NCBI GenBank assembly: GCA_017446095.1
Contig: JAFSRN010000006.1
Coordinates: 1 to 62,721, forward strand
DNA: 62,721 nucleotides
Direction of reading: 5' to 3'
DNA from: Eubacterium sp.
GTDB lineage: Bacteria > Bacillota > Clostridia > Oscillospirales > Acutalibacteraceae
Below the pieces are notes generated by a model that made no database searches, was not told the origin of the DNA, and was given only the letters and a program-made list of their open reading frames with translations. This document shows positions 46,677 to 62,721 of this stretch, piece by piece; position 1 is the first letter of the stretch, and the number at the start of each line of letters is the position of its first letter. A program made the position numbers and the translations under genes.

Positions 46677-48989
46677 ATGAAACAAAATCTCTGCGCACGC
46701 TGCGGCAAACGTCCCGCAGTTGTGTTTATTCAAAGAGTTGAGGGCGACGAAGTAAAGCCTGAAGGACTTTGCATCAACTGCGCCCGCGACCTTAACATCG
46801 GACCTATCCGCCAGATGATTGAAAAGCTCGGCATCAGCGACGAGGATCTCGAAGCTGCGTCCGAGCAGATGAATATGTTTATGGAAAATATGGACGATTT
46901 CAACTTCGACGACCTTGGCGAATTGTTTAATCCCGACAATGCCGACGGCGCACAGACAATGCCGTTCCAGAACCTTTTCGGCAGTGAAGGAAGCGTTGCA
47001 GGCGGCGAAAATTCCGACGGCAAGGAAACCAAGCAGAAACGCGGCAAAAAGCGCAAAAACAAAGCGCCGGACGATTCTAAAAAGTTCCTTAATCAGTACT
47101 GCAACAACCTTACCGAACGCGCTAAAAACGGCGATTTAGATAATATTATCGGCAGGGAAAACGAGATTTCGCGCACGGTGCAGATTCTCTGCCGCCGCAC
47201 AAAGAACAACCCCTGCCTCATCGGTGAGCCGGGCGTCGGCAAAACCGCTATTGCAGAGGGGCTTGCAATCAAAATCGCAAACGGCGAAGTTCCTGCAAGG
47301 CTTGCCGATAAAGAGATTTACCTGCTCGACCTCACCGCGCTTGTTGCAGGCACGCAGTTCCGCGGTCAGTTTGAGGGCAGAATCAAAGGGCTTGTTGACG
47401 AGGTTGTACACGAGGGTAATATTATCCTGTTTATCGACGAGGTTCACAACCTTGTCGGCACGGGCGACAGCGAAGGCACAATGAACGCGGCAAACATCCT
47501 CAAGCCTGCGCTTTCACGCGGTGAAATTCAGGTAATCGGCGCGACCACCTTCAACGAGTACCGCAAGTATATCGAAAAGGACGCTGCGCTTGAACGCCGT
47601 TTCCAGCCCGTTAAAATTGAAGAACCGTCAATTGACGACGCTTATCAGATGCTCCTCGGTATCAAGGGCTACTACGAGGATTACCACAAGGTGCAGATTA
47701 ACGACACGCTTGTTTACAAGGCTGTCACAATGTCCGAGCGCTTTGTTACAGACCGATACCTGCCCGACAAGGCAATCGACCTGCTTGACGAGGCATGCAC
47801 AGGTGCAAACCTGCGTAATCCCGCTATTTCACAGTTCCAGATGCTTGTTGAGGAAAAAGATAATCTTGAGGAAAATATTGAGCGTCTTTCCAACCCCGAG
47901 GACGATGAGGAAATCGACTACGAGCTTATCTCAAAGCTGAAGTCCAAGCTCATTAACATCGGCAATCAGCTTCCCGAACTTGAGGAAAAGGCAAAGGATA
48001 ATCAGGTGCTTGAAGCCGACCTCGCGCGCGTGATTTCGCTGTGGACGGGTATTCCTGCCGCAAAGATTGAGCAGGGCGACGTTAAAAAGCTCGCCGCGCT
48101 TGATGACGAACTCAAGGCGCACATCATCGGTCAGGACACCGCGATTGAAAAGGTTGCCAACGCAGTACGCCGCGGCAGAATCCAGATCAGCCCCAAAAAG
48201 CGCCCGCAGTCATTCATCTTTGTAGGTCCTACAGGCGTGGGTAAAACCGAGCTTGTTAAGCAGCTTGCAAACGCGCTGTTTGATTCGCCCGATAACCTCA
48301 TAAGGCTTGATATGAGCGAGTTTATGGAAAAATTCAGCGTATCGCGCATCATCGGCTCGCCTCCGGGTTACATCGGCTACGACGACGCAGGTCAGCTTAC
48401 GGAAAAGGTACGCCGCAAGCCGTACAGCGTTATCCTGTTTGACGAGATTGAAAAGGCTCATAAGGACGTCCTCAACATTCTGCTTCAGATTCTCGACGAG
48501 GGCAGAATCACGGACGCGCAGGGCAGGGTAGTAAACTTTGAAAATACGGTTATCATTATGACCTCTAACGCAGGCTCGACAGACCAGAACACAATGGGCT
48601 TCGGCAAGAGCGATAAGGACATCACCGAAGAGGTTACAATGAAGGCGCTTGAGCGCTTTTTGCGCCCCGAATTCCTTGGCAGAGTTGACGAGATTGTTAT
48701 CTTCAACAACCTTACCGTTGAGGATTTTGAAAAGATTGCGTCCCTTATGCTCGACGAGCTTGTTGAAAGCCTTAAGGACAAGGGGATCACCCTCACTTAC
48801 GACAGCAGCGTAAATGCTTATCTTGCCAAAAATGCCTTTGGCTCAAAGAAAAATGCACGCGCCCTGCGCGACGCTGTTCGCCGTGAGGTTGAGGAAATTC
48901 TTGCAAACGCAATTGTTTTCAACGAGGGGGCGGAAATCAAATCAATTTCGCTCACCGCAGGCGACAGAATAGATATAAAAATAAACTAA
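46677..48989 (+). CDS. clpE: ClpE-type AAA+ Clp ATPase
   Basis: A 770-residue double-AAA+ unfoldase. The N-terminal C4 zinc finger (Cys 6, 9, 32, 35; CARCGKRP...CINC) replaces the double Clp-N domain of ClpC, as in ClpE. Walker A1 is GEPGVGKT (183-190), Walker B1 ILFIDEVHN (250), a middle UVR-like coiled segment spans about 390-450, and Walker A2 GPTGVGKT (517-524). It works with ClpP in protein quality control. RBS AATAGGAG. In Bacillus clpE is CtsR-controlled; I saw no clear CtsR box. Confidence 0.9.
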   Translation: MKQNLCARCGKRPAVVFIQRVEGDEVKPEGLCINCARDLNIGPIRQMIEKLGISDEDLEAASEQMNMFMENMDDFNFDDLGELFNPDNADGAQTMPFQNLFGSEGSVAGGENSDGKETKQKRGKKRKNKAPDDSKKFLNQYCNNLTERAKNGDLDNIIGRENEISRTVQILCRRTKNNPCLIGEPGVGKTAIAEGLAIKIANGEVPARLADKEIYLLDLTALVAGTQFRGQFEGRIKGLVDEVVHEGNIILFIDEVHNLVGTGDSEGTMNAANILKPALSRGEIQVIGATTFNEYRKYIEKDAALERRFQPVKIEEPSIDDAYQMLLGIKGYYEDYHKVQINDTLVYKAVTMSERFVTDRYLPDKAIDLLDEACTGANLRNPAISQFQMLVEEKDNLEENIERLSNPEDDEEIDYELISKLKSKLINIGNQLPELEEKAKDNQVLEADLARVISLWTGIPAAKIEQGDVKKLAALDDELKAHIIGQDTAIEKVANAVRRGRIQISPKKRPQSFIFVGPTGVGKTELVKQLANALFDSPDNLIRLDMSEFMEKFSVSRIIGSPPGYIGYDDAGQLTEKVRRKPYSVILFDEIEKAHKDVLNILLQILDEGRITDAQGRVVNFENTVIIMTSNAGSTDQNTMGFGKSDKDITEEVTMKALERFLRPEFLGRVDEIVIFNNLTVEDFEKIASLMLDELVESLKDKGITLTYDSSVNAYLAKNAFGSKKNARALRDAVRREVEEILANAIVFNEGAEIKSISLTAGDRIDIKIN

Positions 48990-49760: not shown

Positions 49761-49836
49761 GATCCACTAGCTCAGGCGGCAGAGCACTTGACTTTTAATC
49801 AAGGTGTCCGGGGTTCGATTCCCCGGTGGATCACCA
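49761..49836 (+). tRNA. tRNA-Lys (UUU)
   Basis: 76 nt with encoded CCA; acceptor GATCCAC/GTGGATC; anticodon loop CTTTTAA. Its 3' end lies in a 53-bp direct repeat. Confidence 0.95.
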
Positions 49837-50069
49837 AAACAAAGCAGTCCATCAGGGCTGCTTTTGTTTTGCGCCGGAGAATCGAACCCTGAGAGGGTCT
49901 GAGCGTTAATAAAACAGTCCTGTGGACTGTTTTTAGCGAAGAGCGGTGAAGGCGGGTACCGAAGGCGAAGCCTTGGGTCGCCAAGCCAAAAATACAAGGC
50001 GCAGCCGCAGGATTTATCCCCGGTGGATCACCAAAACAAAGCAGTCCATCAGGGCTGCTTTTGTTTTGC
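49820..50069 (+). mobile_element. tRNA-Lys-associated element bounded by a 53-bp tRNA 3'-end duplication
   Basis: A perfect 53-bp direct repeat (49820-49872 and 50017-50069) covers the last 17 bases of tRNA-Lys plus its terminator hairpin (AAAACAAAGCAGTCC-ATCA-GGGCTGCTTTTGTTTT). Between the repeats lies a 144-bp core with TGAGCGTTAA, the hairpin AAAACAGTCC-TGT-GGACTGTTTT (49911-49933), AGCGAAGAGCGG and GGTACCG. The same motifs in the same order occur in the element beside tRNA-Ser at 27772-27983, including a compensated base pair in the hairpin. No credible ORF. Confidence 0.75.
49837..49871 (+). terminator. tRNA-Lys terminator
   Basis: AAAACAAAGCAGTCC-ATCA-GGGCTGCTTTTGTTTT; duplicated at 50034-50068. 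Confidence 0.8.
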
Positions 50070-50083
50070 TGCATTGCCGTTAC

Positions 50084-50112
50084 TTGACGTTATATATTAG
50101 TTATGTTAAAAT
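50084..50112 (+). promoter_or_regulatory. Promoter of the Clp/FtsH-CARF operon
   Basis: TTGACG (50084-50089), 17-bp spacer, TAAAAT (50107-50112), then GGGGGTG and the first gene. Confidence 0.65.
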
Positions 50113-50138: not shown

Positions 50139-51113
50139 TTGTTGGGAATTGTTGATTATTCGGATTTTGATGTTTTTCAGACCGTCTGCGATTACTTCAG
50201 CCGCAAGGATGAAAGATTTAATGCAGATGAAGAAAAATTGACAGTTGAATTAAAAATGTATCAGTACAGTTTCCCTGTAACTATCCGCTGTTCTGTTATC
50301 CCGCAGAAGAAGCGCCTGATTATTGAATCGCCTATGATTTATAAGGCGGAGAATAAAACTGTTAACGACACCTGCAGGGCGCTGATGCAGTTAAACTACA
50401 ACCTTGAATTAGGCTATTACACCATCGATATACGCAGCGGATTACTGTCGTATAAAGCGTCTGTTGACTACACCTGCTGTGAGGTTGATAACTTCCTGTG
50501 CGATTATATTTTTGTACACATTTTCAATATTATTGAGCGCAATAATGAAACGCTGTTTTACATTGCCACAGGGCAAAAAACGTATCAGGAATGTTATGAC
50601 GCAAATTCTTTTGCAGATACAATTCGTGAGTATATCCCTGAATCTTTCAGCAAGAGTGCTTTAAGTATTTACGATGCTGCAAAGGAATTCTTTTCAGGCG
50701 GCTTTGACTGCGAATGTGATGAAAGTATGCTGCTGCTTCATATCAATTCAAACGAAAACTGGAAATACCCGTCTGCTAATTTGAGAGTTCGCGACAGTCT
50801 GTTTACCGTTGATTTTGACAATGAGTACGACATAGAAATAACCGATAATAACCGTGATTTCCTTTACACGGTTGCAGCAGGCTACACCTACACATCAAAG
50901 GACAGCGCGCTTATTTTTGACAGCGCAACAGACAGGTTTATTCTGCTGCAGTCGAAGCTTTTTGCTGATGAATTCAAAGATGCGGACGGCGTGTTTGTTT
51001 CATTTTTACACAAAGCCTCATATCTTGGGGACTTTCTTAAAGAACTGTTTGCCAAGCTTGACAACAGAGAAATCGGAATGTACGACCTGATTAAGATTTT
51101 ATATAAGGATTAA
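50139..51113 (+). CDS. YbjN-like protein of the Clp/FtsH-CARF operon
   Basis: A 324-residue cytosolic protein. The N-terminal half has the pattern of the YbjN/type III secretion chaperone-like fold (FQTVCDYFSRKDERFNADE, CRALMQLNYNLELGYYTIDI, SGLLSYKASVDYT). The C-terminal half may be a second, diverged alpha-beta domain (CDESMLLLHINSNENW ... FVSFLHKASYLGDFLKELFA). YbjN-type proteins bind other proteins, so an adaptor for the AAA+ product encoded 3 bp downstream is a reasonable inference. The start is TTG at 50139 (or 50142) after GGGGGTG. Family assignment is tentative. Confidence 0.65.
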   Translation: MLGIVDYSDFDVFQTVCDYFSRKDERFNADEEKLTVELKMYQYSFPVTIRCSVIPQKKRLIIESPMIYKAENKTVNDTCRALMQLNYNLELGYYTIDIRSGLLSYKASVDYTCCEVDNFLCDYIFVHIFNIIERNNETLFYIATGQKTYQECYDANSFADTIREYIPESFSKSALSIYDAAKEFFSGGFDCECDESMLLLHINSNENWKYPSANLRVRDSLFTVDFDNEYDIEITDNNRDFLYTVAAGYTYTSKDSALIFDSATDRFILLQSKLFADEFKDADGVFVSFLHKASYLGDFLKELFAKLDNREIGMYDLIKILYKD

Positions 51114-51116
51114 AAT

Positions 51117-54100
51117 ATGGCTTCTATTAAATACGGTGAAATACTTGAATATCTGATTGAAAAAGCTTCATCAGTTTACCCTTCAAAGCCCGGCGTTACG
51201 GCGGAAAGGGTGCTGCTTGCGATGATTTATGAGTCGAACAAAGGTGAGTTCAAGGATGCGGTTGAGTTAACAGACGCTTTGGATTACTTAATTAAAAAGT
51301 CGGTAGATATCAAACGTCTGACTTATGCTGTTATCGACTACCTTAAGATGTCCAATTTCAATATGATGAAGGACAGACAATACTACAGAAACTTAATCAG
51401 CGCTATGGAAGAGCACGTGCAGAAGGAAGAGCGAGGCGAAGCGTTTTTACTCGATTTTGTTACTGTGTATTATGAGCATCCAAACAAGTTCTTAAAGGAT
51501 TTTATGGAAAACAAGGAAGAGCCTTCGTGCGAAGAACTTATGGAAAAGTATCTTGAGGTTATGAACAAAACCGACAGCGAAGACAAAATTGCTATATCCG
51601 AACCTCAGTCTGTGTCCAACAGTCTGGCTAACACGGCAAAGAGTTCAAAAACAGTGCGCGACCGGCTGCTTGAAATTGTATTCGGTCAGAACCACGCGGT
51701 TGACGTGGTTACTTCGGCGATATTCAGTTCCGAAGTTGCAAGACGCCTTCCGGGCAGACCGCACAAGCCAAAGGGCGTGTTCCTTTTTGCAGGTCCTCCG
51801 GGCGTCGGTAAAACCTACCTTTCCGAATCTCTTGCAAAAATACTTAAACTGCCGTGCAAACGCTTTGATATGAGCGAATACAACGAGAAGGAAGACAGCG
51901 TATTACGCCTTATCGGTCTTGATAATGCGTGGAGAAATTCGCATCCCGGCACGCTTACTTCTTTTGTAAAGGATAACCCCGACTGCGTTTTGATTTTTGA
52001 TGAGATAGAAAAAGCTCACACAGACGTAATCCATCTTTTCCTTCAGATGCTTGACGGCGGTGTTCTTCAGGACGCGTGTACGGAAAAGAAGGTGTTCTTC
52101 TACAACACTTATATCATTATGACCACAAACGCCGGCAGACAGCTTTACGACAATGGCGAAACTGATTTTTCAAACGTTTCCGGCAAGGTTATCATTGACG
52201 CACTTCAAAAGGATATCAATCCGCAGACGTTAAGACCGTATTTTCCTGCGGCTATTTGCTCAAGACTCGGCACGGGCAACGTGGTTATGTTCAACCATAT
52301 TAAGGTTGACAGTATTTACAACATCATCAGGAAAGAACTTGAAAAACGCTGCAACGACTTCAAAATCGCTTACGGCATTGATATCAAAGCGGCGGACAGC
52401 AACATAATTTCCGCAATAATGTTTGCGCAGGGTACGCTTTGCGACGCAAGAACTGCGTGCGCTAAAGCGGACAGCTTTATTAATACCGAACTATACGACC
52501 TGTTCCGTCTGGAAACGTTTTCCGAAAATAACGAAGTCATTGACAATGTGCATTTCTCAGTCGAAATACCCGATGACAAAAAGGTCAGAAAACTCTTTGT
52601 GCGTGAAGATAAGCCCAACGTTATTATCTGCGCAGATGATTCCGTAAAGAAAAAGATAACAAAGCATAAATCACATAAAGAGATTAACTTCATTTTCGCA
52701 AAAGATGAAAATGAAATCCGCAGAGCATATGTTAACGACGATATTGATTTTGTTATACTCGACATCTGCTACGGTATGGACGAAGCAAAAAGCAGGTATA
52801 TGAGCATTGAGGATATCGATTCCGCGTTCAGGCACAACTTCAGCTATATCAAGAGCAATCTTTCCTCGCTGCCTGTTTACCTGATTAACAGCGAAAACTA
52901 TAAAATCAGCAAGGAAGAATACCGCTCGCTTGAATCAAGCGGCGTTGTAAGTATGTTTGATATCAGCGACTGCGATACATTCATCAGCGAGGTTGCAAAA
53001 TCCTGCGTAATTTCACACCGTCAGCGCTGCTTTGACGAACTTGCAAGGGCGAACAAGGTGCTTGAATTTGAGTCCGCCCAGACATATAACAGCGAAGATA
53101 AGAGTGTGGAAATCAGCCTGATTGACCTTAAACTGTCTACAGCTGTTGACGCGGAGGATTCAAACCGCGTGCTTAGCAATGTTATGCGCCCTGACGTCAA
53201 ATTCAGCGACGTGCTCGGACTTGACTCCGTTAAAAAGGAACTTGAATTCTTTAAGCAGTACTTCCTCAAACCGCGTGAATACTTAAGAAAAGGCTTCAAT
53301 CCGCCAAAGGGACTTCTGCTATACGGTCCTCCCGGCACAGGTAAAACAATGATTGCAAAAGCGCTTGCCGGCGAAAGCGATGTAACGTTTTTACAGACTA
53401 CCGGCAACGATTTCCAAAAAGGCAATTATTCAGAGTCCGTGGATGAGGTTAAGCGCGTTTTCCGCACAGCACGCAAGTATGCGCCTTCGGTAATCTTTAT
53501 TGACGAAATCGACGCTGTTGCGCGTAACCGTATGAATAATTCAAGCACTTCCGACGCGCAGCTGCTCAATGCGTTCCTCACAGAGATGGACGGCTTTTCA
53601 AAGGACCCGTCAAAGCCTGTGCTTGTGCTCGGCGCAACGAACTTTGATGTATACAACGGCTCGCTTGACCCTGCGCTTATGAGAAGGTTTGACAGAAAGA
53701 TTTATATCTCTCTGCCCGTTTTAAGCGACAGGCGCAAGTACCTCACCGATAAAACACAAAAGGAAATCTTTGACGTCAGCGAGGATATTATTGAAAACAT
53801 TGCCATCCGCTCTGTTGATATGAGCCTTGCGGAACTTGAGGGCGTTGTTGACCTTGCTATGAGAACGGCAGGCTTTGAGGGCTCGGATAAGGTAACGGAC
53901 GAGATTTTTGAAAATGCGTTTGAAACATTTAATATCGGCGAAAAGCGTTCAACCGACGTAACCAATATCAAGCGTATCGCCTGCCACGAATCGGGTCACG
54001 CACTTATGTGCTGCCTCGGCGGCAATACGCCTGTGTATGTAACAATCGTTTCACGCGGTGATGCCGGCGGTTACGTTATGCCTGAAATTAATGAGGAATC

Positions 54101-54485
54101 GCATGTTTTAACTCGCAGCGAAATGCTTAACAAAATCAGAATTTCGCTTGGCGGCAGAGCAGCGGAAATTGTTTGCTATGGCGAAGAGGACGGTCTTTCC
54201 ATAGGCGCAAGTTCCGACCTTAACAAAGCAACAAGAATCGCAAAGGCGATTATTATGGCATACGGCATGTACGATGACTTCGGTATGTCAACCGATATCA
54301 GCCTTGTTTCACCTGAAAAGCTTAAGGAAAAGATTGACTCAATCCTTAAAACCGAGTTGAATAATGCAATAGAACTTATTAAACAGAATAGGGATAAGCT
54401 TGACGCACTCTGCGATGAGTTAATAAAGAAAAACCGCCTTATGTCAAAAGAAATTGAAAGCATTGTTAATATAAAAGGGGAATAG
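51117..54485 (+). CDS. Hybrid Clp-type AAA+ / FtsH-type AAA+ M41 metalloprotease
   Basis: A 1122-residue soluble protein. Residues 1-170 are helical and Clp-N-like (GVTAERVLLAMIYES). Residues about 185-460 are a ClpA/B D2-type AAA+ module: IVFGQNHAVDVV, Walker A GPPGVGKT (226-233), DMSEYNEKEDSVLRLIG, Walker B VLIFDEIEKAHTDV (291-304), sensor MTTNAG. Residues about 495-635 look like a degenerate response-regulator receiver (NVIICADDS; DFVILDICYGMDE, Asp 549). Residues about 690-935 are an FtsH-type AAA+: FSDVLGLDSVKKELEFFKQY, Walker A GPPGTGKT (737-744), SVIFIDEIDAVARNR, LDPALMRRFDR. The M41 protease has HESGH (957-961) and a third-ligand Asp in SSDLNKATRIAKAI (Asp 1034). No membrane helix is present, unlike FtsH. 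It is second in its operon. Confidence 0.88.
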   Translation: MASIKYGEILEYLIEKASSVYPSKPGVTAERVLLAMIYESNKGEFKDAVELTDALDYLIKKSVDIKRLTYAVIDYLKMSNFNMMKDRQYYRNLISAMEEHVQKEERGEAFLLDFVTVYYEHPNKFLKDFMENKEEPSCEELMEKYLEVMNKTDSEDKIAISEPQSVSNSLANTAKSSKTVRDRLLEIVFGQNHAVDVVTSAIFSSEVARRLPGRPHKPKGVFLFAGPPGVGKTYLSESLAKILKLPCKRFDMSEYNEKEDSVLRLIGLDNAWRNSHPGTLTSFVKDNPDCVLIFDEIEKAHTDVIHLFLQMLDGGVLQDACTEKKVFFYNTYIIMTTNAGRQLYDNGETDFSNVSGKVIIDALQKDINPQTLRPYFPAAICSRLGTGNVVMFNHIKVDSIYNIIRKELEKRCNDFKIAYGIDIKAADSNIISAIMFAQGTLCDARTACAKADSFINTELYDLFRLETFSENNEVIDNVHFSVEIPDDKKVRKLFVREDKPNVIICADDSVKKKITKHKSHKEINFIFAKDENEIRRAYVNDDIDFVILDICYGMDEAKSRYMSIEDIDSAFRHNFSYIKSNLSSLPVYLINSENYKISKEEYRSLESSGVVSMFDISDCDTFISEVAKSCVISHRQRCFDELARANKVLEFESAQTYNSEDKSVEISLIDLKLSTAVDAEDSNRVLSNVMRPDVKFSDVLGLDSVKKELEFFKQYFLKPREYLRKGFNPPKGLLLYGPPGTGKTMIAKALAGESDVTFLQTTGNDFQKGNYSESVDEVKRVFRTARKYAPSVIFIDEIDAVARNRMNNSSTSDAQLLNAFLTEMDGFSKDPSKPVLVLGATNFDVYNGSLDPALMRRFDRKIYISLPVLSDRRKYLTDKTQKEIFDVSEDIIENIAIRSVDMSLAELEGVVDLAMRTAGFEGSDKVTDEIFENAFETFNIGEKRSTDVTNIKRIACHESGHALMCCLGGNTPVYVTIVSRGDAGGYVMPEINEESHVLTRSEMLNKIRISLGGRAAEIVCYGEEDGLSIGASSDLNKATRIAKAIIMAYGMYDDFGMSTDISLVSPEKLKEKIDSILKTELNNAIELIKQNRDKLDALCDELIKKNRLMSKEIESIVNIKGE

Positions 54486-54487
54486 CT

Positions 54488-54717
54488 TTGCAGGATAAAC
54501 ACCAGAAACCTCTGGACGCTTTAAATGAATTCGGCTTCGGATATATCGATAATCAGATTGGCGAAAGGCTGCCGACGTTGATGAAGAAGCAAGAGAAGAC
54601 TTAATGCTTTTTGTCGCCACCTGGTACAGATTATCAGCCGCATCAGAAGGTTTATTGAGATTTTCGATTCATTGGTTTAGCAGAAGGGGAGTATATGACC
54701 TACATAGAATTTTTTGA
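54488..54717 (+). other. Two tiny overlapping ORFs or a frameshifted small gene
   Basis: After the protease stop, a TTG at 54488 with AAGGGG seven bases upstream opens a 38-codon frame (MQDKHQKPLDALNEFGFGYI...) ending at 54602-54604. Its TAA overlaps an ATG (54604) that opens a 37-codon frame ending at 54717. The second frame remains open back to about 54552 and reads DWRKAADVDEEAREDLMLFV, with protein-like composition. One ancestral gene of about 75 codons with a frameshift is the simplest reading; two coupled microproteins are possible. Confidence 0.35.
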
Positions 54718-55915
54718 TAAAAGCGTTACCGAAAATATTTATACCACTCTTGCCAATCCGCCTGAAAAGCTGATTCTTGTCGGCTCGGATAAGGAGTGGC
54801 TCAAAGAGCATAAAAAGCGCTATTCTGCTTTGTTTAAATCAAAGAGCATCAGCACTAACGTCAGCTTTAAGGTTATCAACCACAACAACCTTAACGCTTG
54901 TGTTGACGAGATTTCGCGCATTGTTGAAGATGACGACGAGTGTGTTTTCGACCTCACGGGCGGCAATGATCTTTATCTTGTAGCGGTAGGCATTGTTTAC
55001 GAAAAATACAAGAATAAAAAAGTCAAAATGCATCGCGTTGATATTGCAACCGATACGGTTTACGACTGCGATTTTGACGGCGTAAATGTAATTGGCGGCA
55101 ACGTACCGGGCATCACTGTCAAGGATATGATTAACATCTGCGGCGGCAAGGTAATACCGTATGCCGACGATGCGTCAAAAGGTACATATGAGTGGAATAT
55201 GACGCCTGATTTCAAGGATGACATCAAAAAAATGTGGTCAATCAGCAAACTCGGTTTTAAAGACTGGAATAAGCTTATCAGGGCTTTTGCCAAGGGTGTT
55301 CAGGATGATACCAAACTTACCGCTACCTGCAGCAGTAACGCCATCGACAATCTGAAAACTAATAGAACAATAAACAGTATTATTAAAGATCTGGAAGACT
55401 CCGCTTTTATAAAAATCAAAAGGGTAGCGAATGATTACGAAATCGCTTTCAAAGATAAGCAGGTGAAAAGGTGCCTTACTAAAGAGGGTCAGATCCTTGA
55501 AATGATTGTTTACATCTATGCCTGCGAGTCGGGTTACAACAGTGTTATGAACGGCGTTTATATTGACTGGGACGGCGTGCTGCACACCTACGACACAGAC
55601 GTTTTTAACGAAATCGACGTTATTTGTATGCACAACATGGTGCCTGTGTTCATATCCTGCAAAAACGGCAACATCGAAAGCGACGAGCTGTTTAAGTTGA
55701 AAACCGTTGCAAAAAGGTTCGGCGGTAAGTACAGCAAAAAGGTTATTATCTCAACTTCACTGGAATCGACGGACAGCAAAAATGCACTCCGCGAGCGCGC
55801 GAAGGAAATGGATATAGCGATTATTGAAATCAGGAGGTCTACTCGCGACAGCGACTTCCGCGTGGAAATCGGCAACCTCTGGCACACCGCAGAAAGCAAA
55901 AAACTCTATATTTAA
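54695..55915 (+). CDS. Card1/Can2-like CARF-domain nuclease (DUF1887-like)
   Basis: A 406-residue protein. Residues 1 to about 150 form a CARF-like Rossmann domain: KLILVGSDKEWLKEHKKRY and the ligand-loop motif CVFDLTGGNDLYLVAVG (Gly-Gly-Asn-Asp at 89-92). Residues about 180-260 are winged-helix-like. Residues about 262-380 are a PD-(D/E)xK nuclease of the Card1 type: GQILEMIVYIYA (Glu 269), NEIDVICMHNMVPVFISCK (Glu 306, Asp 308, Lys 323), KVIISTSLES. The acidic residue normally two before the Lys is Ser 321. Characterised relatives are cyclic-oligoadenylate-activated DNases/RNases of type III CRISPR loci; no CRISPR array or cas10 is present here. ATG at 54695 follows AAGGGGAG. Confidence 0.82.
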   Translation: MTYIEFFDKSVTENIYTTLANPPEKLILVGSDKEWLKEHKKRYSALFKSKSISTNVSFKVINHNNLNACVDEISRIVEDDDECVFDLTGGNDLYLVAVGIVYEKYKNKKVKMHRVDIATDTVYDCDFDGVNVIGGNVPGITVKDMINICGGKVIPYADDASKGTYEWNMTPDFKDDIKKMWSISKLGFKDWNKLIRAFAKGVQDDTKLTATCSSNAIDNLKTNRTINSIIKDLEDSAFIKIKRVANDYEIAFKDKQVKRCLTKEGQILEMIVYIYACESGYNSVMNGVYIDWDGVLHTYDTDVFNEIDVICMHNMVPVFISCKNGNIESDELFKLKTVAKRFGGKYSKKVIISTSLESTDSKNALRERAKEMDIAIIEIRRSTRDSDFRVEIGNLWHTAESKKLYI

Positions 55916-55926
55916 CAGCAAAAAAC

Positions 55927-55968
55927 AGGGCTGCACCCCAAAATTACGGAGTGCAGCCCTTTATTTTA
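55927..55968 (+). terminator. Terminator of the Clp/FtsH-CARF operon
   Basis: AGGGCTGCAC ... GTGCAGCCCT followed by TTATTTTAT, 12 bp after the nuclease stop. Confidence 0.8.
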
Positions 55969-56514: not shown

Positions 56515-59500
56515 ATGAAAAAAATGACTAAAAGAATGTTATCGCTTGTATTGTCCGCCGTGATGGTGATCACAATGCTGCCGACATTCTCACTAACTGC
56601 GTTTGCGAGCCCGTCCAATATCAGCAACCACCTTGTGGGTAGATATCTTGTTGATGGTGTAAGTAACTTTCTTGATAACGGTTATGATTTGATTACGTCT
56701 GATAGTGGAGTTACTTGGGAATCTGCAGAAAACACTCGCTTAGGTGCTGCAGCAGCAGTATTTTCAACAAGCGGTAACGGATTGATGATAAGCAAGTCGA
56801 ATGTCCAGGCTATGCTTGCTGATGCATCCAAAGATACAGGATTCACTATTGCTTTTAAAGGTTCGCGTGGCTCAAACGGTGCTGACGGTGGGTATAACTG
56901 GGCAAGATTTTTAGATTTTGATAACGGCGCAAGCGGTCGTTATGGTGCTGGTCCAACTAATTCATTGGAATTCGCCTCTAATGCGACAGTTAGAATAAAA
57001 TCAAGCAATACAAACCTTACTGATATTAGTGTAAACGGAGATACTTGGGGAAACCACAACTGGGTTATCTCTGTAAAAGAAGGTTATTTTGCCGTTTATT
57101 GTGATGGCGTAGTTTCTGGTACACCTGTTTCTGATAGCCGTATTAACGCTGCTTGGTTTACTGATCTTCTTGGCGGTAACGGTCAACTTCTGATTGGATC
57201 TTCACCATGGCCGGGAGACACTTTGTTTAACGGTCAAATCCGTGATTTCCGTATTTATGATAAAGCTGCGTCCGATACAGAGGCTGCTGCTATCAGTTCT
57301 GATATTACCGCAAAGGTTAACGAAACTACACCTACACCACCTGCTACAAGCGACTATTGGCAGATTCTCGCTTCAACCGACTTTACAACATCGGTGTGGT
57401 CTAAAAACAGCACATATAACTGGCGTACCTCAACAGCTCACAGGACTGCTGCAGGCGGCGTTGGTATGGGCTGGGGTATTCAGTTCAGAGATGAAGAGCC
57501 GACTGTTACTGTGGATGACGGTGTTAAGTTCTGGTATAATTCCGGCTCTGACCATAACCAGGGTGTTATGTATATGACGAGTTATAACAGCAACACTACA
57601 AACAATATGTTTAGTGCTGCTGCTAACGGCGGTACGGCGGTTACAAGTTTTAAGATTGACCTTAAATTCTCGCTTTTCGGTCAGACTAAGGCTAACTCCG
57701 GTAATGCTTTGAGTGAGCGCCGCGGCGAAAACGTATTCTTCAAGCTTTGCGAAAATGATACAAAATATGGATTTGAATCCCGTTATTCCTATAACTATGT
57801 TTACTATGCACAGGAATCCTACGGCAGAAGGCATATGAAGAATAATAGTGATATTTACGCTGTAAGCGGTACGAGGGACGGCGGCAATTACGTTCTTTCA
57901 ACAGATAAGAGCTATATTGACGCAGATGTTGACTATCACTATATTCTGACCGTTGCTGACGGCTGGCTCTGCTCTTACATTGCAGATTCGTCAGGTAATG
58001 TTGTAATCAGCTACGATCCTATTGATATTTCAAACTATTCGCTCAGTCCGTCTGATATTACAGGTATGTTCATTAACGGTTCAGAATTCAACTTCCTCGG
58101 TTATGAGGATTTTGAAAACGTTAGATATAAGAGCATCGAGATTTATAAGGGTGTTGATACAAGCAGTTACGACAGCACTAAAGACCACTACCTGTTAACA
58201 TACTTTACAGGCAACAGCGCTGCCGGGGAAACACTGCACTATGCAGTATCCGAGGACGGTTACGACTACGAAGCAGTCAACCTTGGTAACAAGGTATGGA
58301 ATGAAGCTGATTACAATGCATCAAAAATCGCAATCTGGCCAAAGAGCTCGGAAAGAGGCATTGCAACCTCACTTCACGTTCGCGACCCGTATGTATTAAG
58401 AGCGCAGGACGGTTCGTTCTACATCCTTGCAACCGACCTTAATACGCATCCTAACGGCGAAGGTGCGGCTGCCGTTTACAGTAACACATCAAAGGTACTG
58501 GTTTGGCATGTAGATAAATTAACGGATATTCCTGACACGGAACCATGGGTAATCGACGGTACACCGTGGAAGAGCGTTATTGCTAAAAACGCTGCCGTTA
58601 AACGTATGTGGGCGCCGCAGGCAATATGGGATCCGACTGTCGGCAAGTATATGTTCTACTTCTCTGCCGGCACGGGTAGTGTTGGCGATGCCGACGGCAC
58701 ATTTGTTTACTATACTTATACGTCAGACTTCAAATCCTTTACCACACCCAAGCGTTTATTTGCGGACGACAGAAGCGTAGTCAAAGATGGCGCTTCCTAC
58801 AACAATACAATTGACGCGGATATCACATACCACAACGGACTTTGGTATATGTGGTATAAAAACGAGGATAACGATAAACTTCGCTATGCTATTGCGAACA
58901 AAGCAAGCGGTCCTTATCAGGGATTCTTCTCATTTGACGACAATACGTATGCAATGGAAGGTCCATCCGTATTCCAGACAGGCGCAAACAGCTATGCAAT
59001 GCTGTCAGACGCTTACGATAACGGCTTGGCATATGTTTTTACTGCTTCATCGCCAAGGGGATTTAAATCCTCAACTACACACTCAACAAACGTAGTATCC
59101 GATCACAATTACCGCCACGGCTGCGTAACGCCTATTACAGAGGCAGAGTATAACGAAATCCGTAATCTTAAAACAAGCGGTATCGTATATAAGTGGCGCG
59201 GCGTTAATCAGCAAAGATATACTTGGAACGGCAATCATAATTTAATTGATAACGGCGCCGACACAATGACTTATACCGCAAGGGAGAGCCGCGGTTCCTT
59301 AACTGCAAATGACGGTACGTTAAAACTTGAGGCATTAGAATCGTCACACTATACCGATACCTATTGGTATGACGCTGCAGGCGGCGGTGTAACTTTAACA
59401 AATAGTGATATACCTGCTGCTATTTCTAATACCGAATATACAGTCGATTTCAGCTTTAAACGAAGTGTTCTTGACGTTAAGTACGATCAGTTCCCGTATT

Positions 59501-62500
59501 CCGATAATACAATTTTTGCGATTTTTGAAGGCTCAACTAATTATGTAAGGTTGGCAGCTGACGGAACATTCTATGTTAAAGGCGATGCTTGTTCACCTAA
59601 AGCAAATGTTTCAAGTACAGATTTTGTAAGATATACAGTTGTGCATAATGATTATTCAACATCGCTGTTGGTAGATGGCAAATATGTTTGCGGTGCAATT
59701 AACACAGACACAATTCCAAACACGGCAACAGTTGCGCTTGGCTGGTATGCAACAAGCAACAATTACCGTATAACAGGTGAATACGGCACGTTAAGTATCT
59801 CGCCGTCTGCTATTGATACAAACGATGATCAGCTGCTCTATGATTACATAGATGATTTTGAGGCTGCGTATATCGCAAAAATGACCAATAACAATGGTGA
59901 CGTATACAGAAATATGTTGCCTGCATACAAGGCATATGTTGACTACAACGAAGCTCTTGATGCTTATAAATACGGCAACGAAAGCAGCGATGCAAAGCTT
60001 GTTGCTGCAGCTATAGAACTTGGCTCAAAAACAGACGCAATGACTTCTGTTTGGAGTGCAAACACCCCACTTGCAGCAAGTGCAACAACCGGATATAGTG
60101 GCGCTTTATATGACGCGCCATTATACTACCCTTCAACATCTGTTAATACTGGCGGATTACTAGACTTTAAGATTAGTGGTTTTGGTGGTAGCAATGGATC
60201 TGATAATAGAATTTATGAACCGAATGCAGTATTGTTATACGATGGTTCGACAGCAATGACTTATCCTGTTTCTTTTTGGCTACACCCAAAAAAATCTGGT
60301 ACGTGGGGTTATAATCTCTATTGTAATTATATTTATCCAAACGCCGATACCATTTCGTTGTCGCAAAATTGGATTGGAGATTGGTATTCAATTGACAAAC
60401 AACCATCGGGTCAAAAGGATTATTCGAATATTTATGGAGCTAATAAGCAAACCATCGGTTATGCCTCTAATCATTCAAATTTAAATGGCAACAAAGATAA
60501 AGAATTAATGGTAGCTAATAAGTTAACAGTAAATTCCAATCAATTGAGTTTTTCTAATGGATTAAGTACGATTAGTTCAACTCAATGGATAATAAATATC
60601 GGTAATAACGATGGACAATCCGATCAATCATTTACTAGTACGGGGTCAATATATGTTGTTGATTACCGTGGCGTTGAAACTGCAGTAAATAACAATAAGG
60701 CAACGCTTGCAACTGTTGAGCAGTATAAAGAGGGCGGATTGCTTGATTTTATCACTGCTATGGATGAATTAACTGTTGATGCCAGCAATTCAACACAAAA
60801 TTATTCAACCAACACATCCACAAAGGCGGCTAATGTAGCAAAAAGTTATTCGGATGGTAAAACTCATATGGCAACTGCTTCAGTTGCAGCTACTCTCAAC
60901 AGTAATAAAGATGCTTATGCAACAGACGGTAACGGCTACATTGCACTCCGTGCTGCTATTGATAAAAACACAAGACCAACCGCAATTGACAGCGGCAACG
61001 GATTCTATGGTGCTTCGTTTAGCGTACGCGACATTGTTAAGAATAACGGTTATGTAACTTATAATGGACACACCGTTCTGCTTAAGAATTACGCCGCATT
61101 TAAGACCGCATATGACGCTGCTGTTGCTAAAATGGCTGCACTTGGTGCAGGCGAAAACACAACAAGTAAAACATCAAATTACGTTAATCCGTCAGGTCCT
61201 AACACAACAGCAGGCACACCTGCAAAAGCGGCTAAAGACCTTGAAGACGCATACAATGCACTTGACGCTTTGTATAATATCACATATTCATACAAAGGCG
61301 GCGTATTGGATGCAAGTGCCGAGGTAAAGGCTGGTGCTTCTGTTACAACCGCACCTGAAAATCAAGAGCCGGAATATTACGATAATGAAACTCACGTTGT
61401 TTACACCTGGCCGAATGAGGTATCAGACGGTCACGCAGTATGGACTAACGAAGCTTATTCAGAGATAAATAATATTTTGGCTTGTAACCATAACACAGCG
61501 CAGGCGCATGTTGCTGCTGTTGACGATGTTAACGGTTACACCGACTATGCTTGCTCTGTTTGCGGTCATGTAGAAACAGAAGCCGGAGTCGGCAAGTACA
61601 GAGAGTGGGACGAACACGAAACCGAGTGGGATGACTATAGCGAATACGTTGAAAAGGCTGATGATACCACAGGCTACACAAATACATCCCGCGGTGTATA
61701 CGCTTCGCAGATTTCTTCAATTATTAGCGGCGTTACAGCCGGCGACGAAACGAAGTCTAAATCCTTCATCGACGGCAAAAATGACGCTCTTGAAACTGCA
61801 GCCAACACTTACCTCAACCCGCTTGCAGAGTACAGCACGCTCAGCACCGCACTTTCCGGCAGAAGCACGGAAAGAAGTTCTAATAACTACAGCGGCGCAA
61901 CACAGCTGTATACTTACGATTCGTGGATTAACTTTGCTGCAAAGTACGATGCCGGCAACACGCTGCTTAACATTACTTATACCGCAGAACAAAAAGCAGA
62001 ACAGGGTAAGTTTACAGTCGGCGCAGGTAATGTTGTAAACAACGGCAAAGGCGGAACAACACCAACCAAATCCAGCTATCAGAACGCGATTGAAACTAAT
62101 ATTTCCAACATTACCGGCGCAACGCTTACATCGGTAGCAGTTGCAGATAAGTACACCACATTTGACAACGCGAGAGATGTTGTTGCTGCGATGGATCGCG
62201 ACAAGTACACAGCTACAGGTTTAGCGTACATCGACGGTGTTAAGGATGCTCAGGAACACGGCACAGGCGGTGTTTACCACAAGCTTTCTGCTGCAGAAGC
62301 AACTGCTTATAACAGCACCACAGGTCAGTCGCTTGCAGAAAACGCTTTGGTTAAAAACAGCACAAACCCGGATGCAAATACTGCTACACTTCTTAGTGCG
62401 GTTACAACACTTGATGCAGATGCAGGCGGTACATATATCAAGCGCTTCTGGGTAACGCTTACTGTAGAAGATGACGGCGTGGCATCCTCACCTACTTCTG

Positions 62501-62721
62501 CAACTGTTAAATACGGCGACGCACATACCTTTGCGCCTTCTGTAGCAAGCGGCAAGAGCATCACAAGCTGGAGTATAACAAACTACGATTACAGTGTTGC
62601 TATCGGAGATGTCGACAGTAATAATCCGATTGGTTCAAGCAAAGCAACGGGTTACGGCAACAATTCGCTCACAAAGACTGTTACCAATAACCTTGCTGTT
62701 ACCGCAATTGTTGACAGCGAC
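56515..62721 (+). CDS. Large secreted multidomain protein with LamG-like and GH43-like domains (partial)
   Basis: An open frame of 2069 codons runs off the right edge. A signal peptide ends near residue 31 (MLPTFSLTAFA). Residues about 43-262 form a LamG/concanavalin-like domain (GNHNWVISVKEGYFAVYCDG, GQIRDFRIYDKA), about 283-560 a second lectin-like domain, and about 565-880 a GH43-type beta-propeller: base Asp in HVRDPYVL (Asp 624), DADITYHNGLWYMWYK (Asp 767/769) and acid Glu in YAMEGPSV (Glu 815). A further lectin-like domain spans about 890-1100, followed by helical FIVAR-like stretches. An arabinan/xylan or related glycan target is inferred. ATG 56515 has AGGAGG eight bases upstream. The missing 3' end may carry a wall anchor. 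Confidence 0.85.
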   Translation, partial: MKKMTKRMLSLVLSAVMVITMLPTFSLTAFASPSNISNHLVGRYLVDGVSNFLDNGYDLITSDSGVTWESAENTRLGAAAAVFSTSGNGLMISKSNVQAMLADASKDTGFTIAFKGSRGSNGADGGYNWARFLDFDNGASGRYGAGPTNSLEFASNATVRIKSSNTNLTDISVNGDTWGNHNWVISVKEGYFAVYCDGVVSGTPVSDSRINAAWFTDLLGGNGQLLIGSSPWPGDTLFNGQIRDFRIYDKAASDTEAAAISSDITAKVNETTPTPPATSDYWQILASTDFTTSVWSKNSTYNWRTSTAHRTAAGGVGMGWGIQFRDEEPTVTVDDGVKFWYNSGSDHNQGVMYMTSYNSNTTNNMFSAAANGGTAVTSFKIDLKFSLFGQTKANSGNALSERRGENVFFKLCENDTKYGFESRYSYNYVYYAQESYGRRHMKNNSDIYAVSGTRDGGNYVLSTDKSYIDADVDYHYILTVADGWLCSYIADSSGNVVISYDPIDISNYSLSPSDITGMFINGSEFNFLGYEDFENVRYKSIEIYKGVDTSSYDSTKDHYLLTYFTGNSAAGETLHYAVSEDGYDYEAVNLGNKVWNEADYNASKIAIWPKSSERGIATSLHVRDPYVLRAQDGSFYILATDLNTHPNGEGAAAVYSNTSKVLVWHVDKLTDIPDTEPWVIDGTPWKSVIAKNAAVKRMWAPQAIWDPTVGKYMFYFSAGTGSVGDADGTFVYYTYTSDFKSFTTPKRLFADDRSVVKDGASYNNTIDADITYHNGLWYMWYKNEDNDKLRYAIANKASGPYQGFFSFDDNTYAMEGPSVFQTGANSYAMLSDAYDNGLAYVFTASSPRGFKSSTTHSTNVVSDHNYRHGCVTPITEAEYNEIRNLKTSGIVYKWRGVNQQRYTWNGNHNLIDNGADTMTYTARESRGSLTANDGTLKLEALESSHYTDTYWYDAAGGGVTLTNSDIPAAISNTEYTVDFSFKRSVLDVKYDQFPYSDNTIFAIFEGSTNYVRLAADGTFYVKGDACSPKANVSSTDFVRYTVVHNDYSTSLLVDGKYVCGAINTDTIPNTATVALGWYATSNNYRITGEYGTLSISPSAIDTNDDQLLYDYIDDFEAAYIAKMTNNNGDVYRNMLPAYKAYVDYNEALDAYKYGNESSDAKLVAAAIELGSKTDAMTSVWSANTPLAASATTGYSGALYDAPLYYPSTSVNTGGLLDFKISGFGGSNGSDNRIYEPNAVLLYDGSTAMTYPVSFWLHPKKSGTWGYNLYCNYIYPNADTISLSQNWIGDWYSIDKQPSGQKDYSNIYGANKQTIGYASNHSNLNGNKDKELMVANKLTVNSNQLSFSNGLSTISSTQWIINIGNNDGQSDQSFTSTGSIYVVDYRGVETAVNNNKATLATVEQYKEGGLLDFITAMDELTVDASNSTQNYSTNTSTKAANVAKSYSDGKTHMATASVAATLNSNKDAYATDGNGYIALRAAIDKNTRPTAIDSGNGFYGASFSVRDIVKNNGYVTYNGHTVLLKNYAAFKTAYDAAVAKMAALGAGENTTSKTSNYVNPSGPNTTAGTPAKAAKDLEDAYNALDALYNITYSYKGGVLDASAEVKAGASVTTAPENQEPEYYDNETHVVYTWPNEVSDGHAVWTNEAYSEINNILACNHNTAQAHVAAVDDVNGYTDYACSVCGHVETEAGVGKYREWDEHETEWDDYSEYVEKADDTTGYTNTSRGVYASQISSIISGVTAGDETKSKSFIDGKNDALETAANTYLNPLAEYSTLSTALSGRSTERSSNNYSGATQLYTYDSWINFAAKYDAGNTLLNITYTAEQKAEQGKFTVGAGNVVNNGKGGTTPTKSSYQNAIETNISNITGATLTSVAVADKYTTFDNARDVVAAMDRDKYTATGLAYIDGVKDAQEHGTGGVYHKLSAAEATAYNSTTGQSLAENALVKNSTNPDANTATLLSAVTTLDADAGGTYIKRFWVTLTVEDDGVASSPTSATVKYGDAHTFAPSVASGKSITSWSITNYDYSVAIGDVDSNNPIGSSKATGYGNNSLTKTVTNNLAVTAIVDSD

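Follow-up and report, generated by a model that had tools for sequence, protein, structure and literature searches.

A predicted Clp-FtsH hybrid protease linked with YbjN-type genes and, at some loci, with CARF nuclease or RyR genes in Clostridia

We analysed a 62,721-nucleotide stretch of Eubacterium sp. DNA (contig JAFSRN010000006.1, hereafter the window) in which three open reading frames of the + strand, g1, g2 and g3, follow a clpC-like gene and a tRNA cluster (Gly-Arg-His-Gln-Lys). They encode a YbjN-type protein, a predicted hybrid AAA+ metalloprotease and a CARF protein with a PD-(D/E)xK nuclease fold (Table 1), and they are co-directional, as a preliminary description of this DNA had stated. 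By sequence and fold, the predicted core of the set is the hybrid protease, which carries no membrane segment, together with its YbjN-type partner. By linkage, the effectors are optional, and consist of the CARF nuclease, a membrane TrkA-N/RyR protein, or both. We consider the chances about even that the set is an accessory module in which ligand-sensing effectors are added to a YbjN/hybrid-protease core. The observations suggest a module for stress or immunity that centres on a protease and has not been described before. The three genes had been interpreted beforehand as such a module with a Card1-like nuclease; the linkage and the folds of that interpretation stand, whereas its anti-phage label and its Card1-like gating fare poorly.

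The g2 product is predicted to be a single chain in which a Clp-type AAA module is joined via a pseudo-receiver to an FtsH-type AAA module and an M41 protease. The Walker A Lys-Thr and Walker B Asp-Glu residues of the Clp-type module, the same residues of the FtsH-type module, the HExGH residues of the protease and Asp549 of the receiver are each kept in 78/78 long relatives. The middle domain has a receiver fold. The acid pair, Ser/Thr and Lys that would complete a phosphorylation site around the Asp were not found in it, the corresponding places, as read from the model, not being conserved. No membrane segment was detected in g2, the maximal 19-residue hydropathy being 1.1. The protein shares with FtsH (TIGR01241) an AAA module and an M41 domain with HExxH, but its score is 310 bits where the cut-off is 600, and it lacks the hydrophobic N-terminal membrane anchor of FtsH, and carries the Clp module and pseudo-receiver ahead of its FtsH part. 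With ClpA/ClpC it has in common a ClpN-like domain and one AAA module, aligning to the second half of ClpA. Those proteins have two Clp AAA modules and ClpP as protease partner, whereas the second AAA module of g2 is FtsH-type and its M41 protease belongs to the one polypeptide. An FtsH-type AAA is also found in the FtsH ternary conflict systems, themselves predicted (PMC7159879); there, however, the partners are MoxR and vWA proteins and the first FtsH-type AAA is inactive, whereas the first AAA of g2 is Clp-type with intact Walker motifs and the partners are YbjN and CARF/RyR proteins. No description of a Clp-FtsH fusion was present among the literature matches listed. A machine in which Clp and FtsH parts are fused around a receiver-like domain would be an unusual AAA+ architecture, and raises the question of how two unlike AAA modules operate in one chain.

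A single YbjN domain is recognisable in g1. Pfam family PF10722 matched 34 of the 51 proteins scanned at E <= 0.01, g1 not being among them. Since many relatives carry two separate YbjN genes in tandem, and fused pairs occur at two loci (L088, L041), a second YbjN copy, strongly diverged and eroded, may make up the C-terminal half of g1. At two other loci (L048, L049) the YbjN gene adjoins a gene for another AAA protein (665-671 aa, with a weak match to the FtsH-type AAA of g2), and a sigma-like gene is located near it; the AAA partners of YbjN proteins may be of several types.

Linkage was surveyed at 86 hybrid loci. Genome contigs were scanned with an alignment of five hybrids, and the best 80 of the 156 relatives found were taken. 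Three (L106, L127, L135) gave no passing open reading frame and seven repeated contigs already in the set; the window itself and 15 loci that other searches had yielded completed it. L110 and L154, near-identical places in one metagenome-assembled genome, are both counted. Titles of the best 80 of the 156 relatives name Clostridia or subgroups, with many rabbit, goat, deer, sheep and rumen samples. Within 6 kb of the hybrid, a YbjN gene was found at 35/86 loci, a transmembrane TrkA-RyR protein at 32/86, a CARF nuclease at 24/86 (including a 1503-aa fusion at L137), a solo RyR gene at 14/86 and a sigma-like protein, assigned by eye without a Pfam match, at 8/86. The link of the protease with YbjN and a CARF nuclease, first proposed from the window, is thus recurrent. 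YbjN and the CARF nuclease occur together at nine loci, the window and L137 among them, and YbjN without the other four families at 18/86. A CARF nuclease and a TrkA-RyR protein are both present at 13 loci (L110 and L154 both counted), and interchangeable effectors were rejected on account of this co-occurrence. The partner families are nearly absent beyond 5 kb from the hybrid; for the CARF nuclease, near and far densities differ about 15-fold (L154 left out). An order-level sample gave 14 hybrid matches in 13 of 394 genomes, our own genome counted, with at least one partner at 8/14 loci and a nuclease at 3/14. The protease-YbjN linkage is wider than one window alone could show.

The TrkA-RyR proteins have N-terminal hydrophobic segments in 8/8 cases checked. 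Pfam recognised TrkA_N in 5/31 of them and RyR in 1/31. RyR repeats of known structure match their profile at a best E of 4e-5, and hhalign aligns that profile with the solo RyR genes at 92%. Two of the solo genes were tested and matched PF02026 at 5e-34 and 4e-37. The 1503-aa protein of L137 (L137:259-4767) has a protein kinase fused to a TrkA/RyR-like region and to a nuclease region of the Card1 type; the latter retains, as judged by eye, an E-x-K motif (VEAK). At L047 (3090-5621), genes that by eye are macro-domain, Sir2-like and radical-SAM-like adjoin the hybrid locus. The literature matches listed held no description of YbjN+FtsH or RyR+CARF systems; two papers on CARF and nucleotide-centred systems reportedly deal with non-CRISPR RyR and CARF proteins.

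Several observations weigh against a module of this kind. None of the five neighbour families lies within 6 kb at 23/86 hybrid loci, some of them short contigs, and five divergent hybrids (L077-L081), two at contig ends, lack such partners. A family-level sample for g3 gave any match in 24/150 genomes; in this unbiased sample, 2/7 close nucleases besides that of the window adjoin a hybrid, and no hybrid was found in any of the five remaining genomes. Finally, Ser stands in place of the ExK Glu of g3 in 30/30 aligned proteins, so that nuclease activity is putative. A search of 15 other CARF-bearing genomes, the five close ones included, gave no hybrid, and Cas10 was present in 2/15 of them. The self-contained module first supposed is weakened, the nuclease being optional: YbjN or TrkA-RyR accompanies the hybrid at loci that have no nuclease, and close relatives of the nuclease are found where there is no hybrid. 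A single clade for all hybrid-linked nucleases was also rejected, with 5 changes on a tree whose sample is biased, most linked rows having been reached through the hybrid. The linked rows are deeply diverged.

Over its full length, g3 has the complete VC1899/Can2/Card1 fold, CARF and PD-(D/E)xK in the same domain order, in agreement with the folds first assigned to it. Its PF09002 score is 25.9 bits, just under the gathering score of 26.4, and a relative (L140) reaches 31.8. The Asn-Glu-x-Asp motif is kept across the 30 aligned proteins, and its Glu and Asp and the Lys of ExK are present in 30/30. At the ExK position Can2 and VC1899 read ECK in the profile alignment. SthCan2 is inactive after both acids of NE-x-D are changed, and Ser19 and Lys99 are two of four residues contacting cyclic tetra-adenylate (cA4) that are common to Can1 and Can2, according to PMC7969007. 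In the profile alignment of the g3 family to Can2, Asp8 (kept in >=90%) aligns with Ser19, and residue 92, aligned with Lys99, is Asp or Glu in 29/30 aligned proteins; the comparison took in these two contacts, leaving out Thr42 and Tyr118. Because acids replace the equivalents of Ser19 and Lys99, g3 is unlikely to be gated by cA4 as Can2 is, and the Card1-like gating first put forward becomes doubtful. VC1899, which PMC7969007 describes as not regulated by cA4, has Asp at the Ser19-equivalent place, like g3. We consider it probable that gating of g3 relies on a ligand that is not cA4 recognised in the way of Can2. A related nuclease within a type III-B CRISPR locus (L040) carries the same substitutions; these residues are therefore no proof of independence from cyclic oligoadenylates.

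At L040 (G272:C9, 856-9380) the CARF nuclease, 39% identical to g3, lies directly after the last cmr gene, between the cmr genes, which come with a 511-aa Cas10 bearing GGDD, and a 12-repeat array; the match to Cmr5 falls short of the cut-off for that family. The operon had been called CRISPR-less; for the nuclease clade as a whole this is weakened by the member at L040. Card1/Can2 nucleases usually go with Cas10 of type III CRISPR, whereas the genome of g3 (2.09 Mb in 22 contigs and 97% complete, in which g3 itself is matched once) has no match to PF22335. Cas10 (PF22335) was not found in 27/29 hybrid carriers, this genome included, and was found in 2/29, 17 of the 29 having been reached through loci with completeness not stated, a result in favour of the first interpretation. 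An SMODS cyclase was found in 2/29 carriers, our own genome being one. The statement that no cyclase is present is correct for the window and not for the genome, where contig C2 (L189, G000:C2:196000-209000) carries a type II cyclic-oligonucleotide-based antiphage signalling system (CBASS) with a DncV-like cyclase, an E2-E1 fusion, a JAB protein and a Cap15 effector side by side. With Cas10 and SMODS each in 2/29 carriers, these two families offer no general source of a ligand for the CARF proteins of the carriers.

The set occupies a variable site. Other genes follow the clpC-tRNA cluster in 5/6 same-genus loci (L175-L179, L179 reaching a few hundred bases past the cluster), and L180 ends before that point. 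Hybrids were found in 2/16 same-genus genomes, 42% identical to g2, on other contigs and after a YbjN pair; at L183 the hybrid has no CARF nuclease nearby, and L184 ends just past the hybrid. The g1-g3 set is accessory in behaviour, by transfer or repeated loss. The proposal of a tRNA island holds as to the variability of the site. An island bounded by repeats was rejected as stated: both copies of a 53-bp repeat lie upstream of g1 and do not flank the block. No integrase was seen by eye among the open reading frames of the window, no profile search having been made for one. A phage, plasmid or viral origin was likewise rejected, as no relative was found in viral contigs (A1 patterns), nor one of g2 residues 425-690 in plasmids and phages at 1e-5.

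As to function, it could go either way whether the hybrid protease controls a ligand-gated effector. The YbjN, ClpN-like and pseudo-receiver domains would select and dock substrates, the Clp ring would unfold them and the FtsH/M41 ring would cleave them, the protease thereby setting the level or state of the effector. An inhibitor might be destroyed upon stress or infection, or the activated effector might be cleared afterwards. More specifically, it is conceivable, at somewhat less than even odds, that one-chain Clp/FtsH metalloproteases with an internal pseudo-receiver and YbjN partners form a new class of signalling or immune module, acting as the switch for ligand-gated effectors (the CARF nuclease and the RyR/TrkA membrane protein), with a ligand that is neither CRISPR-derived nor cA4 recognised as by Can2. 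CRISPR-Lon (PMC9704534) and nuclease-protease pairs (PMC12799240) also tie a protease to a ligand-gated or nuclease effector. The former is a Lon-SAVED fusion and the latter reportedly use a trypsin-like protease, whereas g2 is an AAA+ metalloprotease with a separate CARF nuclease.

Control of an effector by the hybrid protease can take two forms, whose odds overlap with its own. In the first, which we hold tentatively, YbjN and the hybrid constitute a substrate-selective stress or protein-quality protease, with the CARF and RyR proteins as ligand-sensing regulators and not as weapons. The 18 loci where YbjN accompanies the hybrid without the other four families argue for it, as do the sigma-like protein seen by eye at 8 loci and the lack of enrichment of known defence genes nearby. 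TrkA-N/RyR membrane proteins would also suit ion or envelope sensing. However, the patchy spread, the low identity within the genus and the effector-type partners suit conflict systems better than housekeeping. The second form, anti-phage abortive infection, is rather unlikely: infection would raise a nucleotide signal, the CARF nuclease would fire, and the protease would execute or license arrest, as in CRISPR-Lon or nuclease-protease pairs. Conflict systems typically have parts such as CARF nucleases, RyR proteins and proteases, and the sporadic spread, the variable site and the clade member in a type III-B locus are consistent with it. Against it stand the rarity of Cas10 and SMODS in the carriers, the lack of relatives in viral contigs, plasmids and phages, and the result of scoring the neighbourhood with PADLOC. 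At 1e-10, the 100 proteins near hybrids gave matches to two families and the 95 proteins far from them to 11, every family being represented by a single member, with the core partners being left out, the open reading frames called mechanically and PADLOC containing no undescribed systems. This result speaks against a classical defence island. It is improbable that g3 strayed from type III CRISPR, or moved freely as a single gene, to land beside an unrelated protease operon: the clade member in the type III-B locus and the 5/7 close relatives away from a hybrid would fit, but nucleases at 24/86 loci against <1 expected (our own estimate, from one randomly placed nuclease per 2-Mb genome), the contrast in near and far density and the deep divergence of the linked rows do not.

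The linkage, read in this way, indicates that CARF nucleases with the Can2/VC1899 fold are common to type III CRISPR and to a protease-centred module. Orphan CARF proteins such as VC1899 would thereby gain a testable partner logic.

Table 1. Features of the g1-g3 locus and its surroundings (window coordinates).
Feature	Position	Strand	Description
tRNA-Lys	49761..49836	+	last of clpC-tRNA cluster
53-bp perfect direct repeat, copy 1	49820..49872	+	tRNA-Lys 3' end plus terminator
53-bp perfect direct repeat, copy 2	50017..50069	+	
Promoter-like site 5' of g1	50084..50112	+	TTGACG-17-TAAAAT, TG ahead of second hexamer; such sites in no clear excess over shuffled sequence
g1	50139..51113	+	324 aa; YbjN-type domain aa 11-151 (50169-50591)
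g2	51117..54485	+	1122 aa, predicted hybrid AAA+ metalloprotease: ClpN-like / Clp-type AAA / pseudo-receiver / FtsH-type AAA / M41
g2 Clp-type AAA module	51765..52166	+	aa 217-350
g2 receiver-fold domain	52605..53030	+	aa ~497-638; Asp549
g2 FtsH-type AAA module	53313..53711	+	aa 733-865
g2 M41 zinc metalloprotease domain	53964..54464	+	aa 950-1116; HESGH at 53985-53999
g3	54695..55915	+	406 aa; CARF + PD-(D/E)xK fold, VC1899/Can2/Card1 group
g3 CARF loop T-G-G-N-D	54956..54970	+	aa 88-92
g3 putative nuclease motif	55607..55663	+	NEID (305-308) to SCK (321-323)
Terminator-like hairpin 3' of g3	55927..55960	.	listed on - strand; T-rich stretch on + side too

Two frames in the gap between g2 and g3 (54486-54694) resembled a broken small open reading frame. 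A fourth gene was rejected as part of the set: across 127 loci these frames matched the window's own copy and sites at or adjoining the g3 start, and the source genome holds no second copy. Upstream of the tRNA cluster, the ClpC-like gene (46677-48989) has by eye a cysteine-rich, McsA-like start. Downstream of the set, an open reading frame of 2069 aa (56515-62721), open at the window end and with a signal-peptide-like start by eye, perhaps encodes a secreted carbohydrate-active protein.
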